Positions 10,641-19,005 of a stretch of DNA of 36,759 nt are shown here, in pieces. The position numbers were made by a program, and so were the translations under genes. Position 1 is the stretch's first letter. Each line of letters opens with the position of its first letter. The notes beneath the pieces are model-generated. The model was not told the origin of the DNA. It saw only the letters and a list, made by a program, of their open reading frames with translations, and did not search any database. Source of the stretch: an uncultured Flavobacteriales bacterium (GTDB lineage: Bacteria; Bacteroidota; Bacteroidia; Flavobacteriales_G; Salibacteraceae). The stretch lies in assembly GCA_913062955.1 (NCBI GenBank), contig CAJXZP010000041.1, positions 1 to 36,759 of the forward strand, read 5' to 3'.

Positions 10641-12395
10641 ATGGAAAAACAATGGCTTCTCACTTCCAATCATACTCAGGATCAGGAAAGTAAACTCTTT
10701 AATGAACTTATTTCGTTTACAAAAAATCCGGATTCAACTACCAAATCGGCATACCGTATTTTCACAAAACTCCTTTTGCAACGAAAAATTACAACCGTAC
10801 CCCAAGCCATTGTGTTCAATAAACTAGAAATGGATCAATTACATGACCCGTTTTTAATGTTGAATATGCAGAAAGCGGTACATAGAATTTCCACCGCTAT
10901 TTCAAAAAATCAAAAAATCATGGTCTATGGAGACTACGATGTGGATGGCACAACCTCCGTAGCATTAATGACCTCATTTCTAAAACCTATATGTGAAAAT
11001 TTGATGTACTATATCCCGGATAGATACACCGAAGGATATGGCGTAAGTTATCAAGGAATCGATACGGCTAAAGAGGAAAATGTAGATTTAATTATTGCAT
11101 TAGATTGCGGTATCAAGGCAGTCGATAAAGTTGCTTATGCAAATGAAAAAGGAATTGACTTCATCATTTGCGACCATCACACCCCGGGCGACATTATACC
11201 GGACGCTATTGCCGTTTTAGATCCCAAACAATCTGATTGTAACTATCCCTATAAGGAATTACCAGGATGCGGTATTGGATTCAAACTATGTCAAGCGCTT
11301 CAATTCCAACTTCAATTAGACTTTAACTTGGAATCTCTTTTGGATTTAGTAGCGATAAGTATTGCATGTGATATTGTGCCGGTAACGGGAGAAAACAGAG
11401 TTTTAGCCTCTATGGGCCTAAAGCTAATAAACACCGCACCACGAGCCAGCATAAAAGCAATTCTAGGAGAGATGGACCCCAACTCTCGGATTCGTATTAC
11501 GAATTTAGTATTTCAAATTGGTCCCAAAATAAATGCGGCTGGCAGAATCTCCTCCGGTAAAACAGCGGTAGACATGTTATTATCGAGTGAGAAAACGGAA
11601 ATATTAAAATTTACGACCCAGATTAACACCTATAATGAAGAACGAAAGGAAAAGGACAAATCAATCACAGACGAAGCCCTTTCCATCATTGCAAAAGACC
11701 CGGAACTCATTCAAAAAAACTCGAACGTACTCTTCCATCCTAACTGGCATAAAGGTGTGGTAGGTATTGTCGCATCCAGAGTTATTGAAAAGTATTACAA
11801 ACCCACCATCATTCTCACGCACTCTTCGGATGGAATAATTGGTGGGTCCGTTCGTAGTGTTAGTGGGTTTGATGTTTACCAAGCATTAGAAAAATGTTCC
11901 GATCATATGTTACAATTTGGAGGACATAAATATGCTGCGGGTTTAACCTTAAAAACAGAACAACTATCCGATTTCATACAAAAATTTGAAGATGTAGTCT
12001 GCGAGCAAATGGCCACGGGCGTTTTCGTACCCACGATCCATTACGATTGCGAAATAAAATTGGATGATATCAACTTTAAACTAAAAGCACTTATTGACAA
12101 ATTAGAGCCATTTGGGCCTCAAAACATGACCCCAACCTTTATCGTTTCCCATGTCATTGACACCGGAAATTCAAGAGCAGTAGGCGCTGATAAAACCCAT
12201 TTAAAATTGGAGGTGACGGATCCTGAAAGTGGCGTAATTGTACCTGCAATTGCGTTTGGGCTAGGCCATTTAGAGGAAAAAGTTCAAAGTGGAATCTCCA
12301 TGAGCCTATCCTTCACGGTAGATATTAATTACTGGAACAATAGGGAGATTTTACAACTTATGGTCAAGGATATTCGATTTACGGATATGCAATAG
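10641..12395 (+). CDS. recJ: Single-stranded-DNA-specific 5'-3' exonuclease RecJ
   Basis: RecJ degrades single-stranded DNA from the 5' end in recombination and mismatch repair. The 584-residue product has the DHH phosphoesterase motifs YGDYDVDGTTS (96-106), ALDCGIKA, and CDHHTPGD with DHH at 178-180, followed by the DHHA1 domain (GKTA, GGSVRS, FGGHKYAAG) and a C-terminal OB-like domain ending near the stop. Length is normal for the family. ATG 10641 is favoured because the -7 box ends four bases before it and the frame has no better upstream start. Its last 17 bp overlap, tail to tail, the 3' end of the lipoprotein gene on the other strand, with no terminator between them. Confidence 0.97.
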   Translation: MEKQWLLTSNHTQDQESKLFNELISFTKNPDSTTKSAYRIFTKLLLQRKITTVPQAIVFNKLEMDQLHDPFLMLNMQKAVHRISTAISKNQKIMVYGDYDVDGTTSVALMTSFLKPICENLMYYIPDRYTEGYGVSYQGIDTAKEENVDLIIALDCGIKAVDKVAYANEKGIDFIICDHHTPGDIIPDAIAVLDPKQSDCNYPYKELPGCGIGFKLCQALQFQLQLDFNLESLLDLVAISIACDIVPVTGENRVLASMGLKLINTAPRASIKAILGEMDPNSRIRITNLVFQIGPKINAAGRISSGKTAVDMLLSSEKTEILKFTTQINTYNEERKEKDKSITDEALSIIAKDPELIQKNSNVLFHPNWHKGVVGIVASRVIEKYYKPTIILTHSSDGIIGGSVRSVSGFDVYQALEKCSDHMLQFGGHKYAAGLTLKTEQLSDFIQKFEDVVCEQMATGVFVPTIHYDCEIKLDDINFKLKALIDKLEPFGPQNMTPTFIVSHVIDTGNSRAVGADKTHLKLEVTDPESGVIVPAIAFGLGHLEEKVQSGISMSLSFTVDINYWNNREILQLMVKDIRFTDMQ

Positions 12396-13500
12396 CAAAA
12401 ATACTTTTCTCTGTAACCACATCCAGATAATCCGATTCAGAGTCACCGAATAAACGAACATCGAATTGAACCGTTATTCTTTTTGTTGAATTATTGTTTT
12501 GATCGGTGATATAATCTTCCACTGAAATTATTCTAAAACTCGAATTTTCTGGTTGTTGAAATTTTGTACTCGAATATTTCTTACCCGATTGATTGTTCCA
12601 ATTTACTGTTACTTCAGAGTAATCTCGAACATCTTCGGTTACCACAATCTCAGTAGAGACATCAAAATTAGATACACAATCTACCTTTTGTGTATCTAAA
12701 ACCACGTTCTTACATTTATAGGAAATGCATCCAAAGGCATCTGTAGACTCCAAACAAGAGGTGAAAACCGAATCAGTGGGTGGCAAATTATTAGGACCTT
12801 CTATCATGTATCCATTACCAAAATCCCATAATTCCGTACGTCCAACCCCGGGAATAAATGTCCAAGTTAAACGTCCAATTGCACTATTATAGCTCACATT
12901 AAAATCCACTTTACAACCAGAAGTAAAGTTTATCGGAAAAGAAATTACACTGGAACAACCACCTCCGGAGGAAACCACCAAAGAAGGATTTACAATTGAA
13001 TCCGCCTCATTGACGTAATAATGAACAGGATTCAATAAGGTACTTGGAATACTTCCATCGCCAAAATCCCATAAATGATTTATTCCAATCGGGGTAGATC
13101 TGGAACTGAATGTAGCCTTATAGCTGGTAAATAAATATTCAGGAGGACCTCTAAAAAAATACGACTGCACTTTTAGGCACTCATCCACGGAAGGATGAAG
13201 GCCATTTTCCACTTTTCTTTCACGAATAGAAATTTGCAATTGACCTGGGCATTGATCCTTTCCAACACATTCCCGGTTTCCCAATTCACCCGTAAATGAT
13301 CTTATATTTAAGGTATCCTCAGAAAAAGAGGTCCGCATAAAATAGGAATGGTCACCGGCAGATATTTCCACCAAATTCCCACCGATTACCCCTTTGAAAA
13401 AAAACACAGCATCCTCCTGTTCACCGGGTACCGAAGGCCTTTCACAGGACCCTAAACACACCAGAGAAAGTAAAAGATATATAAGTTTTTTTTTCATCAA
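12379..13500 (-). CDS. PKD-domain lipoprotein, third gene of the sigma/anti-sigma operon
   Basis: A 373-residue exported protein with a lipoprotein signal (MMKKKLIYLLLSLVCLGSC, lipid-attachment Cys19). Two PKD-like beta-sandwich modules are visible from LWDFGDGS (143-150) with a following NPVHYY, and LWDFGNG (224-230). Cysteines recur through the mature part (for example 78, 84, 108, 181, 196), so disulfides are possible in the periplasm or at the surface. PKD modules usually mediate protein-protein or glycan contacts. It is 45 bp downstream of the anti-sigma/barrel gene and on the same strand, so it is probably the sensor, ligand or partner of that system (inference). I know no characterised homolog. 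Its 3' end overlaps recJ by 17 bp. Confidence 0.75.
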   Translation of the reverse strand: MMKKKLIYLLLSLVCLGSCERPSVPGEQEDAVFFFKGVIGGNLVEISAGDHSYFMRTSFSEDTLNIRSFTGELGNRECVGKDQCPGQLQISIRERKVENGLHPSVDECLKVQSYFFRGPPEYLFTSYKATFSSRSTPIGINHLWDFGDGSIPSTLLNPVHYYVNEADSIVNPSLVVSSGGGCSSVISFPINFTSGCKVDFNVSYNSAIGRLTWTFIPGVGRTELWDFGNGYMIEGPNNLPPTDSVFTSCLESTDAFGCISYKCKNVVLDTQKVDCVSNFDVSTEIVVTEDVRDYSEVTVNWNNQSGKKYSSTKFQQPENSSFRIISVEDYITDQNNNSTKRITVQFDVRLFGDSESDYLDVVTEKSIFAIAYP

Positions 13501-13545
13501 TTAGAGAGGTATCAAAAATAAAGCATCCGCCTTAATTCGGGCTCG

Positions 13546-14871
13546 CTAAAACCGGAAAGGTGAGTACTTTAAATACACACGTAACTGAACATTATTATCA
13601 AAGGAATCGTTTCCAAAATAATCATTGTTGGTGACATCTATTAAACCATAATTCAAACGCAGACCCACGTTCCATTTCGGTTGAATTGAATATTCATATC
13701 CGGCCACCACAGAGAAATCATATGACTTAAAGCCATCTGTAGTCCCCCATTTCATTTCATCCTCGACAATTGACTCTGTAGCTGAGGTATACTCTGTGGA
13801 AACTTTATGCTGTCCAGTAACTAAATACGACACACTAGCTCCACCCATAAAATTGTGATTACCGGCATTGAAATTCATCATCACAGGTAGTTCTAGGTAC
13901 ACCAAACGTTGGGACTCAATTCGTGTTTGTTCAGAAACACTACCAAACCCGTATATCTTTCTATCAAATGTCTTTAGTGCATTCACCTCATTTCTTGGCG
14001 CATATAGTAAATCTGCTTTCACAGAAAACCCACCTTTCAAATATCTCTGATACGTAAGACCCAATACTTCACATCCAGATACTCCCGCTTTTCCGGTCGT
14101 TACTAAACTTGGATTAAAAGAGACCCCTCCAATAAAACCAAATTCATTTTTCCTTAATCGCGGTAATTTAGAATCGCCTATTTCAGCAAATAAAGTATGC
14201 TCATCCGTTTCTAGAGATAAAGTGTTCATCCCATTTAATCCAGACAAACGAGCCAAATTCTCTCGATCAGACCCCATGGTAATGGCTTCCGAGGTATTAT
14301 CCGAAATCCTTAAACTTTCAAACCCATCATTTTGGGCAAAAAGTGCATTTTGTAAATATTCATTGCTCCCCGATGGTTTTGTTTGTTCCAAGTGAGAGGT
14401 AGTACGCATAGTCGAATTGTAAGCTGAGGTTGCGTTTGATTTTTCAACTGAACCCTGTTTTACATCTCCCGTATTTACGGATTTATCCGAGTCAATGCTT
14501 ACGGCAGCTTCCATTCTCTGGGAGTCACCCGATCCTGCTATAGGCTCAAAAGCCTCTTTGTCAGATTCCATTGAATTTTCAGAGACGGCTACACTTTCAC
14601 TTCCATCCATTAATGAATTCTCAGAAATTAATTCCGTTTGTAGACCTATGACATATTCCGAACTGGAAGAAACAGAGTCCCAAACAAACACAGAAGTAGC
14701 CAAAACAACAATAGCGCCAGCTACAGCTAACACGGTTCCGTATTGGAAACCAGCAGCTTTTTTCTCGGCAGGAAGCATTTGCTCCATCTTTCGCCAAGAC
14801 TCCATGTTAAAGGCAACATTCCCATCGGAAAGCCCTTTTTTAAACAAGTTATCTAAACTTTCGTCACTCAT
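13546..14871 (-). CDS. Anti-sigma-like N-terminus fused to an outer-membrane beta-barrel domain
   Basis: A 441-residue protein of unusual plan. Residues 1-40 (LDNLFKKGLSDG, AFNMESWRKMEQML) are a short cytosolic helical segment like those that bind ECF sigma factors in Bacteroidota; no zinc motif (HxxxCxxC) is present. Residues about 43-66 are a transmembrane helix. Residues about 70-235 are a Ser/Glu/Asn-rich low-complexity linker. Residues about 238-441 have alternating polar/hydrophobic strands, short turns and a final Phe, as in small outer membrane barrels (PorT/OMP_b-brl type). Its ATG overlaps the sigma gene stop (ATGA), showing tight coupling. The likely role is an anti-sigma factor that senses envelope state. 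Whether the barrel truly sits in the outer membrane while the helix spans the inner membrane is inference. Confidence 0.75.
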   Translation of the reverse strand: MSDESLDNLFKKGLSDGNVAFNMESWRKMEQMLPAEKKAAGFQYGTVLAVAGAIVVLATSVFVWDSVSSSSEYVIGLQTELISENSLMDGSESVAVSENSMESDKEAFEPIAGSGDSQRMEAAVSIDSDKSVNTGDVKQGSVEKSNATSAYNSTMRTTSHLEQTKPSGSNEYLQNALFAQNDGFESLRISDNTSEAITMGSDRENLARLSGLNGMNTLSLETDEHTLFAEIGDSKLPRLRKNEFGFIGGVSFNPSLVTTGKAGVSGCEVLGLTYQRYLKGGFSVKADLLYAPRNEVNALKTFDRKIYGFGSVSEQTRIESQRLVYLELPVMMNFNAGNHNFMGGASVSYLVTGQHKVSTEYTSATESIVEDEMKWGTTDGFKSYDFSVVAGYEYSIQPKWNVGLRLNYGLIDVTNNDYFGNDSFDNNVQLRVYLKYSPFRF

Positions 14872-15437
14872 GCGGTAGTGTAATGTTTAGTAGCGGTTTT
14901 CGCTTTTTCAATTAAACCTCTTAGTATTTTTCTAGCATTAGAAACGTGCCATTTAGACGTTCCAACACTTATTCCCATCATTTCAGCTATCTCCTTATGA
15001 CTGTATCCATCAATGATGTGCAAGTTGAAAACTTTCTGAGACACCGGAGGTAAACTTTGTATCATATTCTCCAATTCCTCCGCTTCAAACATTAGATCTG
15101 CATCGTTAAAAGATACCGATCTAGCTTCATGCACTCCATCAAAATCAGTGTATTCGATAGCGGCTTTACTTTTTTTATTCTTTCTAAATTCGTCAATTAC
15201 GGTATTAATCATAATTCTACGAATCCAAGCTTCAAATGGTACGTCCTCATTGTACTTGTCCAATTTGGTTACAATTTTAAGGAACCCCATATTCAGTACT
15301 TCTTCGGCATCCTCACTATTTTTATGGTACCGTAGACAAATACTCATTAGAATACCATAACACTTATGGTAAAGCTCAAACTGAGCTCTCCTCTTGTTAT
15401 TCCGGCAATCTAACAGAAGTGATTTTTCTATAACCAT
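14868..15437 (-). CDS. ECF-type RNA polymerase sigma factor
   Basis: A 189-residue sigma-70 family protein with regions 2 and 4 only. Region 2 is seen around ELYHKCYGILMSICLRYHKN, EDAEEVLNMGFLKIV and PFEAWIRRIMINTVIDEFRK; region 4 around LPPVSQKVFNLHIIDGYSHK followed by the helix-turn-helix EIAEMMGISVGTSKWHVSNA. It should direct RNA polymerase to a small regulon. Its stop overlaps the start of the anti-sigma/barrel gene (ATGA), the standard pairing of sigma and anti-sigma. The 140 bp between it and dnaG hold a short dyad, AACCAAATGGTT (15501-15512), which might be an operator or self-promoter element, and a near-match to the housekeeping -7 box with one extra base. Confidence 0.92.
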   Translation of the reverse strand: MVIEKSLLLDCRNNKRRAQFELYHKCYGILMSICLRYHKNSEDAEEVLNMGFLKIVTKLDKYNEDVPFEAWIRRIMINTVIDEFRKNKKSKAAIEYTDFDGVHEARSVSFNDADLMFEAEELENMIQSLPPVSQKVFNLHIIDGYSHKEIAEMMGISVGTSKWHVSNARKILRGLIEKAKTATKHYTTA

Positions 15438-15577: not shown

Positions 15578-17566
15578 CTAAAAAATGATTATTCCTTGTT
15601 GCTCTAGTAGCTCCCGTTTGATTTCTTCCAGCCCTTGTATTTCGGTTAAAATAGCCATCATATCTTCCGAATTAAGATCTATACCTTTTAACCCCTCTTT
15701 CATTTCCCCAATAACATCTTGGATTTTACGTGCTTTAAAGGCATATAATCCATCTCGTACCGCTCGGAACATTTTATCACTTTCTGTAAAAACCTCGATA
15801 TTTTGACTTGCCCATTTATGTAAAACATGTTTATCAGCAATTAAATCTACGACCAATTCTCGCGTTGTATTGTCTTCCAAACTCGTGAAAAATGTAACAG
15901 GATCCTTCTCTGGATTAACCTTAAGCTCGGCTAAATACATATCCAATACTTTCTTAAACAAGGAATCATGAAATATCAAATCATCTTCAAAAATTTCTTC
16001 CGCTACAAAATCAGCCAATTTCATTTTCACAATAATTTCGTTTTCATCCTCATCCAATGAATCGACATCAATGACGGTTAATCCATAATTTAAGACTAAA
16101 CGAAGAATATCTCTTTCCTGATGAAAAGTCCCAGAGGTAGTTACTTGTTTTGTTGGGGGAGCTTTAAACTCCGGATCAAAAAACTCCGGGGGTGGCTCAT
16201 CAAAATGTTGTGGGGAGGCTTGCGACTTTGATTTAAGCCCATCTTTACGTACCTGATCCGATTGCCTTTTTAAACGAATCTTATTTAATTCCGAAATTAA
16301 AGTCTTTTCAGGAACATCTAAAAGATTACTACACTCCTTGGTATAGACTGACCTTGTAATTCCATCTGGAATTATTGCAATAGATTCAATGATATTTCGA
16401 ACTAACCCAGCTTTTTTTATCGGGTCACCAGCTGTTTCCTCAGCCAGTAATTGTGTCTTAAATAAAATAAAGTCCTTTGATGCCTCTGAAAAATACGACT
16501 GAATTTCATCAATTTTTCTAGATTTCGAAAAAGAATCAGGATCCTCACCCTCTGGTAATAAGGTGGCTTTTACATTTAAACCTTCCGCCAGAATTAAGTC
16601 AATCCCTCTAAAAGATGCTTTTATTCCGGCAGGATCAGCATCGTACAAAATGGTAATATTTTTGGTATATCTACCAATTAACCGAACCTGATCACTCGTA
16701 AGAGCTGTACCCGAAGAGGCGACCACATTTTTGATTCCAGCCTGATACATGGAAATCACATCTGTATAACCTTCTACCAAATAACACAAATCATCTTTTA
16801 CAATTTGTTTCTTGGCTTGATAAATACCATATACAATTTTACTTTTATGGTAAATTTCACATTCTGGAGAATTAATGTATTTCGGAATGTGTTTTTCCGT
16901 TTTTAAAGTTCTACCTCCAAATCCCAAAGTTCTACCCGATAAATTTTGGATTGGAAACATAACTCTTCCTTTGAATCCATCGTATATCCCCTTGCCTTTA
17001 TCCTTAAGCAGTCCCACTTCAATGAGGTAATCCAAACTATAGCCATGCTCTTTGGCGGCTTTGGTCATGGCATCAAACTGATCGGGAGCATACCCCAAAC
17101 CAAATGCTTCCACCGTTTCTGCACTAAAGCCTCGTTCGGTAAAATAACTTAAGCCGATAGCTCTACCTTCATCCGTGGATAATAGAGATTCTTTAAAGTA
17201 CTTTTTGCCCCATTCAGAAACAATGTAAAGGCTTTCCCGGTGACTTTTTGCTTCCTCCAGTTCTGGTGAAGATTTAGTTTCCTCTATTTCAATATTGTAT
17301 TTTTGGGCAAGGTAACGAAGGGCTTCTGGATAGGACATTTGTTCATGTTCCATCAAAAAGGTAACCACGCTCCCCCCTTTTCCAGAACTAAAGTCCTTAA
17401 AAATTTGTTTAGCGGGAGAAACCATAAAGGATGGAGAACGCTCGTCAGAGAAGGGGCTTAACCCTTTATAACTCGAACCTGCTCTTTTCAAATTAACAAA
17501 TTCTCCGATGACTTCCTCAATTTGAGCGGTCTCAAAAATTCGATCTATAGTTTCCTTATTTATCAC
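15578..17566 (-). CDS. dnaG: DNA primase DnaG without zinc ligands
   Basis: DnaG makes the RNA primers for replication. The TOPRIM catalytic core is intact: VEGYTDVISMYQAG and ITILYDADPAGIKA supply the acidic residues, and GRVMFPIQNLSGRTLGFGGR precedes them; a helicase-binding C-terminal region follows. The N-terminal domain keeps its shape (GLSPFSDERSPSFMVSP then KDFSSGKGG), but all four positions that hold the Cys/His zinc ligands in E. coli are Ser, Ser, Asp and Ser, which I believe is common in Flavobacteriia. Two GTG starts are possible, 17572 and 17566. I prefer 17566 (MINKETIDRIF) because it matches family starts and because the -7 box TACCTTTG ends at 17572, so the upstream GTG would overlap the box. 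The protein would be 662 residues. Confidence 0.95.
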   Translation of the reverse strand: MINKETIDRIFETAQIEEVIGEFVNLKRAGSSYKGLSPFSDERSPSFMVSPAKQIFKDFSSGKGGSVVTFLMEHEQMSYPEALRYLAQKYNIEIEETKSSPELEEAKSHRESLYIVSEWGKKYFKESLLSTDEGRAIGLSYFTERGFSAETVEAFGLGYAPDQFDAMTKAAKEHGYSLDYLIEVGLLKDKGKGIYDGFKGRVMFPIQNLSGRTLGFGGRTLKTEKHIPKYINSPECEIYHKSKIVYGIYQAKKQIVKDDLCYLVEGYTDVISMYQAGIKNVVASSGTALTSDQVRLIGRYTKNITILYDADPAGIKASFRGIDLILAEGLNVKATLLPEGEDPDSFSKSRKIDEIQSYFSEASKDFILFKTQLLAEETAGDPIKKAGLVRNIIESIAIIPDGITRSVYTKECSNLLDVPEKTLISELNKIRLKRQSDQVRKDGLKSKSQASPQHFDEPPPEFFDPEFKAPPTKQVTTSGTFHQERDILRLVLNYGLTVIDVDSLDEDENEIIVKMKLADFVAEEIFEDDLIFHDSLFKKVLDMYLAELKVNPEKDPVTFFTSLEDNTTRELVVDLIADKHVLHKWASQNIEVFTESDKMFRAVRDGLYAFKARKIQDVIGEMKEGLKGIDLNSEDMMAILTEIQGLEEIKRELLEQQGIIIF

Positions 17567-17571
17567 AGCCA

Positions 17572-17579
17572 CAAAGGTA
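17572..17579 (-). promoter_or_regulatory. -7 box of dnaG, abutting the start codon
   Basis: On the minus strand TACCTTTG (17579-17572) matches TAnnTTTG exactly; five bases separate it from GTG 17566. A TTTG 25 bp further upstream (17608-17605) could be the -33 element at long spacing. Confidence 0.5.
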
Positions 17580-17960: not shown

Positions 17961-18455
17961 TTAATATGTTTTTTCTGTTTTATTTCCTTGTTCATCCCAA
18001 AAGAACCAGGTACCTATAGGAGTTCCCGCTTCCATTTGTCCTTGATATCGAATTTTCCCATCCGGATACCACGTTTTTTTTTCTCCAATTTCAATCCCCT
18101 TATCAAACTCCCCAATACTCCAAGGCTTTCCATCGTCATAAAAAGATTTCCAGATTCCGGTACGAGATTTATGCTCATCCACCTCACCTTCCATTTTCAC
18201 CGATCCATTTTCATGCAACTCCTTATATCCTTTAAGATATCTCTTCCCGTTGGTAATAGCATACACTTCCTGCCCCTTCGTTTTTCCATTTTCATAAAAA
18301 GAGGTGATCTTAAGTTCAGTCGGAATTATGGGTTCTTTCTTCTTTATATTCTCCTGGCAGGCATTTAAACAAAGCCCCCCAAGAAACAATAAATTAAACA
18401 GCAGTAACCTTGGTAACCTGCGGTAATAATTTTTCAAAAATATTCTGTACTCCAT
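17961..18455 (-). CDS. MORN-repeat lipoprotein
   Basis: A 164-residue exported protein. From ATG 18455 the N-terminus reads MEYRIFLKNYYRRLPR, then a hydrophobic stretch LLLFNLLFLGGLCLNAC with a lipobox-like end (Cys33). The mature part is made of MORN-type (MORN_2, toxin-antitoxin-antidote-like) beta-hairpin repeats, seen as YENGKTKGQ, HENGSVKMEG, YDDGKPWSIGEF and YPDGKIRYQG, ending GTWFFWDEQGN. Such proteins are frequent in Bacteroidota and their role is unknown. A longer frame would start at 18500, but its first residues are only the out-of-frame end of nfu; even ATG 18455 overlaps nfu by 62 bp. It is likely co-transcribed with nfu and ends at the terminator 17928-17955. Confidence 0.75.
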   Translation of the reverse strand: MEYRIFLKNYYRRLPRLLLFNLLFLGGLCLNACQENIKKKEPIIPTELKITSFYENGKTKGQEVYAITNGKRYLKGYKELHENGSVKMEGEVDEHKSRTGIWKSFYDDGKPWSIGEFDKGIEIGEKKTWYPDGKIRYQGQMEAGTPIGTWFFWDEQGNKTEKTY

Positions 18456-19005
18456 ATTGTAAAGTTTGTGTGGATGATGGACATCCGTTACATGCACCAC
18501 TTAATTTAACTTTTAATTCCCCATCTTCAAAAGATTCAAATGCAATGGCTCCTCCGTCATTTTCAACAGCTGGACTTACATATTCCTTCAAAATATGTTC
18601 GATCTTTTTATCAATATCACGAACCTGCCCTGGTTTAGGTAAGGCTGAAAACCCAGAATTTTCCTTTTGCTCTTCCTTTAGAACCGTTTTAGCCTCCATT
18701 GCCTCTTCATCAATAATGGGTTGACCCGCTTGTAAATAATTCGTTAAGTAATCTCTCACTTCCATCATCACATCACTCCACTCCAAATGATCCACAATAA
18801 TAAGGGTCACGAAATTTTGAGATAACATCACTCCTTTTACGAATGGGAATGTAAACAACACCTTAGCCAAGGGAGCATTCTCAGTTTCAGAAGCAGCATT
18901 AAACTCATAAGCCTCTCCGTTTGAAACCACTGCCAAATTCCCCACAAACTTCATTGCTTTAGGATTAGGTGTCATTTCTGCATATATAGTAACTGGTACT
19001 TTCAT
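18394..19005 (-). CDS. NifU-like iron-sulfur carrier (Nfu)
   Basis: A 203-residue two-domain protein. Residues 1 to about 90 form the Nfu N-terminal (scaffold-like) domain with TPNPKAMKF (12-20); residues about 130-200 form the NifU C-terminal domain with SGACNGCPSSTQTLQ, where Cys172 and Cys175 bridge a 4Fe-4S cluster between two subunits. It delivers clusters to apo-enzymes after assembly. The domain order matches the mitochondrial NFU1-like type common in Bacteroidota. Start ATG 19005; a TAAATTTG box (19030-19023, minus) lies 17 nt upstream. Its 3' end overlaps the start of the MORN lipoprotein gene in another frame. Confidence 0.95.
   Translation of the reverse strand: MKVPVTIYAEMTPNPKAMKFVGNLAVVSNGEAYEFNAASETENAPLAKVLFTFPFVKGVMLSQNFVTLIIVDHLEWSDVMMEVRDYLTNYLQAGQPIIDEEAMEAKTVLKEEQKENSGFSALPKPGQVRDIDKKIEHILKEYVSPAVENDGGAIAFESFEDGELKVKLSGACNGCPSSTQTLQYGVQNIFEKLLPQVTKVTAV

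Follow-up and report, generated by a model that had tools for sequence, protein, structure and literature searches.

A Das-Dma-type sigma/anti-sigma operon with a PKD lipoprotein as candidate third component and its association with type IX secretion cargo genes

Introduction

Dma proteins, found only in Bacteroidota, combine an anti-sigma segment, a transmembrane (TM) helix, a disordered tether and a C-terminal barrel in a single chain (Pardue et al. 2026, PMC13088901). In B. thetaiotaomicron, the sigma factor next to dma becomes active once dma is deleted, and the loss of either dma1 or dma2 raises vesicle formation via the cognate sigma factor Das; the published systems act on vesiculation and polysaccharide loci and not on the type IX secretion system (T9SS) (PMC13088901). 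The family is two years old, and its handful of tested members all belong to one gut species. In P. gingivalis, the sigma factor SigP is driven by the two-component system PorXY and acts on T9SS machinery genes (PMC4800418; PorA, PMC7712824), while the SM6 CGT-box promoters of Flavobacterium psychrophilum have one ECF/anti-sigma pair among their targets (PMC9723704). In general, surface sensing and the control of secreted surface protein expression are poorly known in Bacteroidota.

Here we analyze a three-gene operon in a stretch of 36,759 nucleotides (the window) from an uncultured Flavobacteriales bacterium of the Salibacteraceae. An earlier sequence-only reading had presented its second gene product as a departure from known anti-sigma factors, a view that is out of date, as the Dma class has been established experimentally (PMC13088901). 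The trans-envelope kind of anti-sigma factor is already published, while the lipoprotein component, the das promoter motif and the T9SS link may be new; none of the three was found in the literature searched, which excluded the founding Dma paper (Pardue et al. 2024, PNAS, doi 10.1073/pnas.2321910121).

Organization and conservation of the operon

The operon is a minus-strand trio that reads from the sigma factor through a 441-aa protein to a lipoprotein, towards recJ (Table 1). Its flanks are dnaG (15578-17572) on one side and, on the other, the convergent recJ (10641-12395), which the lipoprotein gene overlaps tail to tail by 17 bp (12379-12395). The ATGA overlap of the first two genes had been recognized in the sequence-only reading and is confirmed by the sequence; the same -4 overlap was seen again in most relatives, and translational coupling of the two genes would be expected from it. 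The 45-bp gap given earlier before the lipoprotein gene was counted from a TTG at 13500; the gene listed here begins at the ATG. Beside dnaG, the window also holds a gene for a MORN-repeat protein with a lipobox-like N-terminus (17961-18500), whose start at a GTG brings it into overlap with the NifU-like gene (18394-19005); its true start probably lies further in.

Table 1. Coordinates of the operon and of the observed and predicted features within it.
Feature	Position in the window	Strand	Size and basis
ECF sigma factor gene, Das-like	14868-15437	-	189 aa
Dma-like trans-envelope anti-sigma protein	13546-14871	-	441 aa; AlphaFold2, Pfam, full-length relatives in family, order and class
Overlap ATGA, sigma stop/anti-sigma start	14868-14871	-	sequence
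Cytosolic two-helix segment, residues 1-35	14767-14871	-	presumed sigma-binding domain
Inner-membrane TM helix, residues 44-66	14674-14742	-	hydropathy and AlphaFold2
Disordered Ser-rich acidic periplasmic tether, residues 67-240	14152-14673	-	174 aa
8-stranded outer-membrane beta-barrel, residues 242-441	13549-14148	-	PF13568, AlphaFold2, Foldseek
PKD lipoprotein gene	12379-13497, from ATG	-	372 aa; lipobox Cys18
Predicted ECF promoter, CCAACC (-35)-N16-CGTTTA (-10)	15514-15487	-	ends 49 bp before the sigma start codon

The sigma factor matches the Pfam models Sigma70_r2 (E 1.2e-13) and Sigma70_r4_2 (E 7.8e-16) as well as TIGR02937 above cut-off, and the Bacteroidetes family TIGR02985 below cut-off. 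Its relatives lie upstream of a Dma-like gene in every locus of the A3 set. With identities of 47-94% to the window's protein it is by far the best conserved member of the trio, compared with 16-52% for the Dma protein and 24-54% for the lipoprotein.

The family of the window's genome, its order and its class all contain full-length relatives of the Dma protein. In most loci the order is sigma, Dma, lipoprotein, with genes that usually overlap or nearly touch, and a convergent recJ often follows the trio. The same order occurs in many families of the class, so that this arrangement is far above chance. Culturable relatives such as Brumimicrobium salinarum (locus L060) and Phaeodactylibacter luteus (L044) carry the trio as well. 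The sequence-only reading had made its proposal depend on a gene order kept beyond close relatives, and the order does recur class-wide. The window's genome also carries a second Das-Dma pair without lipoprotein (L003 307-3282; genome G000, contig C32), which comprises a 494-aa protein with a weak PF13568 match and has a T9SS sorting-domain protein directly upstream. Two further ECF genes of this genome (contigs C8 and C11) have partners that match the N-terminal profile.

The Dma-like protein

The 441-aa protein was modelled with AlphaFold2 using an alignment of 33 relatives taken from named genomes as input. The model places helices at residues 3-15 and 23-32, leaves residues 67-240 without structure (mostly pLDDT <50) and assigns the strands of a barrel to residues 242-440 (pLDDT mostly >90), while hydropathy peaks at 2.33 at residue 45. 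Pfam OMP_b-brl_2 (PF13568) matches residues 243-414 above cut-off (E 2.9e-12). In Foldseek the barrel retrieved OmpA, Ail, OmpX and NspA, in each case at a probability of 1.0, the TM-scores on target length being about 0.45-0.58; a sequence search of the PDB with the whole chain returned low-complexity matches only. The anatomy proposed in the sequence-only reading, namely a cytosolic segment, one TM helix, a linker and a barrel, is confirmed by AlphaFold2 and Pfam. The structure prediction that it had called for gives an OmpA/OmpX-like barrel of eight strands in the C-terminal part, and its low-complexity linker is also present, with 174 disordered residues in the model. Its central idea, that one chain ties the outer membrane to a cytosolic sigma factor, is likewise supported by sequence, model and conservation. 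We file the protein as Dma-type by its architecture and the adjacent sigma factor, and not by comparison with the B. thetaiotaomicron sequences.

Residues 1-35 are the most conserved part of the protein, with a column entropy of 1.88 bits versus 2.79 in the linker, and the two-helix N-terminus is conserved in relatives across Bacteroidota. This segment probably binds the sigma factor. Covariation between the two was considered as evidence of binding and was set aside, since columns of the barrel covary with the sigma factor as strongly under the same permutation and the signal is explained by residual phylogeny; the top pairs had joined helix 1 to sigma region 4 and helix 2 mostly to region 2.

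The tether is the least conserved part of the protein. Among 107 relatives its sequence is not conserved and is rich in Ser, Asn and Thr, while its length is kept (median 180 residues, 5-95% range 142-269), which is what a spacer should show if one end of the chain binds sigma and the other lies in the outer membrane. The kept length also counts against the view that the protein is a classical anti-sigma factor with a periplasmic sensor, whose C-terminal beta domain would be soluble or periplasmic and would have no link to the outer membrane. That view has no direct support, the tether sequence itself being uninformative, and it has to contend with a confident membrane-type barrel of eight strands that matches the OmpA/OmpX class and a Pfam outer-membrane family. 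A further argument comes from Pedobacter and Solitalea, in which the barrel forms a protein of its own that belongs to the same Pfam family and starts with a signal peptide-like segment. We thus regard a classical anti-sigma factor as very improbable.

Dma proteins that appear to be split in this way were observed in Pedobacter, Solitalea and a Sphingobacteriales MAG (L100 5018-6624, L112 5018-6575, L111 5018-6705 and L106 5018-6656). These loci encode an anti-sigma and TM protein of 239-260 aa followed by the second protein, in which the PF13568 barrel was confirmed for L100. The anti-sigma and barrel halves of Dma can evidently be separate chains.

The PKD lipoprotein

Pfam PKD_4 matches the window's lipoprotein below cut-off (E 1.3e-4) and 16 of 18 relatives, at best with E 2.3e-28; PKD models were the only matches for the lipoprotein and its 17 relatives. 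The structural model (pLDDT 86) contains four beta-sandwich domains, and a fold search returned generic Ig/PKD arrays only. Of the two PKD modules read from the sequence earlier, the second appears in the model as an Ig-like sandwich and has no Pfam hit in this protein. As regards a possible surface-export signal behind the lipobox Cys, only 22 of 93 lipoproteins carry at least two acidic residues at +2 to +6, and a basic residue is found at +2 to +4 in 64 of 93.

A profile of the lipoprotein was run on 295 genomes of the class, and all full-length matches were taken with their flanks. In this search a das-dma pair immediately precedes 54 of the 56 full-length relatives; the remaining two are L184, a second copy in tandem, and L194, an orphan that is truncated. 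The converse does not hold, as some das-dma pairs have no lipoprotein. Genome G010 has such a pair (L025) and elsewhere the orphan (L194 3003-3926), which adjoins a T9SS cargo gene; its locus looks as if it had been broken up.

The near-exclusive linkage supports the earlier suggestion that the lipoprotein is a partner of the other two proteins, and judging from gene order it is probably a dedicated third component of the Das-Dma system that may act as a sensor or a structural partner. On the other hand, it could be a target gene that happens to sit in the operon and stands outside signalling, with Das and Dma acting alone as in B. thetaiotaomicron. There, a dma2 mutant shows strong induction of BT_1557, the third gene of the operon, and deleting this gene leaves vesiculation unchanged (PMC13088901), and the Das-Dma pairs that do without a lipoprotein would agree with such a role. 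However, BT_1557 is annotated as DUF4943, a Pfam model for which the window's lipoprotein gave no match, and it would be unusual for a mere target to be found almost never away from das-dma. We therefore consider a plain target gene a real possibility, with the odds somewhat against it.

Promoter motif and autoregulation

The upstream regions of the sigma genes share the motif CCAACC(TTT)-N16-CGTnTA. Its core, CAACC-N16-CGT, was found in 68 of 144 upstream regions of non-identical sigma genes against 0.46 in shuffles, and the spacer is fixed at 16 bp, neighbouring spacers being at background level. An AAC in the -35 and a CGT in the -10 element are typical of ECF promoters. With such elements before das, autoregulation is the natural reading, and the promoter predicted in the window would place the das operon under its own control. 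Two copies of the core about 120 bp apart precede the das gene of L157, and in G008 (L246) two intergenic sites about 150 bp apart have no long ORF directly behind them.

Association with T9SS cargo genes

A T9SS sorting domain, detected with a model built from segments found by NCBIfam TIGR04183, is present in 34 of 81 adjacent same-strand genes of loci with the lipoprotein and in 11 of 359 non-adjacent genes of the same stretches (p 3e-19); these loci are spread over about a dozen families of the class, and related ones among them are not independent samples. Next to das-dma pairs without lipoprotein the domain occurs in 6 of 62 genes. Moreover, the core motif lies before 18 of 57 T9SS cargo genes of these loci (0.16 expected), at 22-114 bp from the start, compared with 14 of 404 other ORFs. 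PKD domains that match the lipoprotein profile are present in many of the cargo proteins. Against a T9SS link, the neighbours of the window's own operon are dnaG and recJ and not T9SS cargo. Taken together, motif and neighbourhood point to a link between the Das system and T9SS cargo.

It may be argued that the system serves outer-membrane vesicles or polysaccharide uptake, the published function of Dma1 and Dma2, and that the T9SS link is incidental, as cargo genes are so common, with at least 150 in the window's genome, that any locus must have some nearby. Nevertheless, the enrichment is about 20-fold over other genes of the same stretches, the cargo genes share the das promoter motif, and das loci without lipoprotein show much less T9SS association. 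An incidental link thus appears unlikely to us.

In three genomes of the genus the strict motif gave 21 sites, 14 of them intergenic, and a reversed control pattern 11 sites, none intergenic. Besides das, the window's genome has three T9SS type A cargo genes and one gene for a MORN-repeat protein (L237, distinct from the one beside dnaG) at 36-58 bp behind intergenic sites, as well as a TonB-dependent receptor whose site overlaps the predicted start; the two sister genomes add two further T9SS cargo genes with sites. Both sisters also have a site upstream of a WcaJ-type exopolysaccharide sugar transferase (L239 6269-7630 and L244 457-1788), whereas L271, the best WcaJ match of the window's genome, is preceded only by CAACC and CGT spaced 15 bp apart. 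As only two of the three genus members have a strict site there, and no site was found upstream of WcaJ genes in the other genomes examined, WcaJ was not retained as a general target.

The regulon predicted for the window's genome would be small: das and about five other genes, of which three encode T9SS cargo. A large regulon was considered and rejected, as genome-wide counts do not exceed those of the reversed pattern: across the family the strict motif occurs about 72 times versus 67, and in the window's genome a looser motif 30 times versus 29, so that the individual regulon sites are candidates. Without a family-wide excess the regulon must be small. Given the number of cargo genes in this genome, T9SS enrichment among the few motif genes of the genus is only suggestive, and the T9SS argument relies on the many loci that were tested for neighbourhood and motif.

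Proposed mechanism

We believe, with a probability of roughly 0.68, that the trio forms a Das-Dma system extended by a third component, and that this system regulates its own operon and envelope or surface genes, prominently T9SS cargo. The two-helix N-terminus of Dma would hold Das at the inner membrane, and the TM helix and the periplasmic tether of about 174 residues would join it to the protein's own 8-stranded barrel in the outer membrane, where the lipoprotein would work with the barrel. A change at the outer membrane (ligand, cargo, mechanical or envelope state) might be passed through the chain or end in its cleavage, and either event would free Das. The freed sigma factor would then transcribe its own operon from CCAACC-N16-CGTTTA together with a small set of envelope and surface genes, T9SS cargo prominent among them. 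Gene order, domain anatomy, lipoprotein linkage, the promoter motif and its occurrence before cargo genes were all computed; sigma binding, the release mechanism, the role of the lipoprotein and the signal are what we infer.

A more specific version would be a three-component relay, in which the PKD lipoprotein and the Dma barrel sense surface proteins exported by the T9SS and Das adjusts their expression via CCAACC-N16-CGTnTA. It draws on the domains of the lipoprotein, which are of a kind also present in T9SS cargo, and we offer it as a speculation that is rather doubtful at present. If true, it would constitute a cargo-feedback circuit for type IX secretion across much of Bacteroidota. In any case, the lipoprotein, the promoter signature and the T9SS link provide testable parts and targets for the Dma family in other Bacteroidota.

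Comparison with known systems

As in FecA-FecR-FecI, an outer-membrane signal would reach an ECF sigma factor via an inner-membrane anti-sigma factor. In FecA-FecR-FecI, which needs TonB, the receptor in the outer membrane is a different protein from the anti-sigma factor; neither a FecR domain nor a TonB receptor was matched on the operon's proteins, so the system is not FecR-type. The closest resemblance is to Dma1/Dma2 and Das1/Das2 of B. thetaiotaomicron, with the same four parts in the same order, an adjacent ECF sigma factor and, as for Dma2, a three-gene operon. Unlike the dma2 operon, in which the third gene encodes a DUF4943 protein (BT_1557), the present one ends in a PKD lipoprotein gene, and its predicted regulon and neighbourhood concern T9SS cargo instead of vesiculation or PULs. 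Finally, an ECF sigma factor linked to T9SS genes is shared with PorXY-SigP and SM6. However, SigP answers to a two-component system and acts on machinery genes, while the present operon would involve an anti-sigma factor of the Dma type and, for the most part, T9SS cargo.
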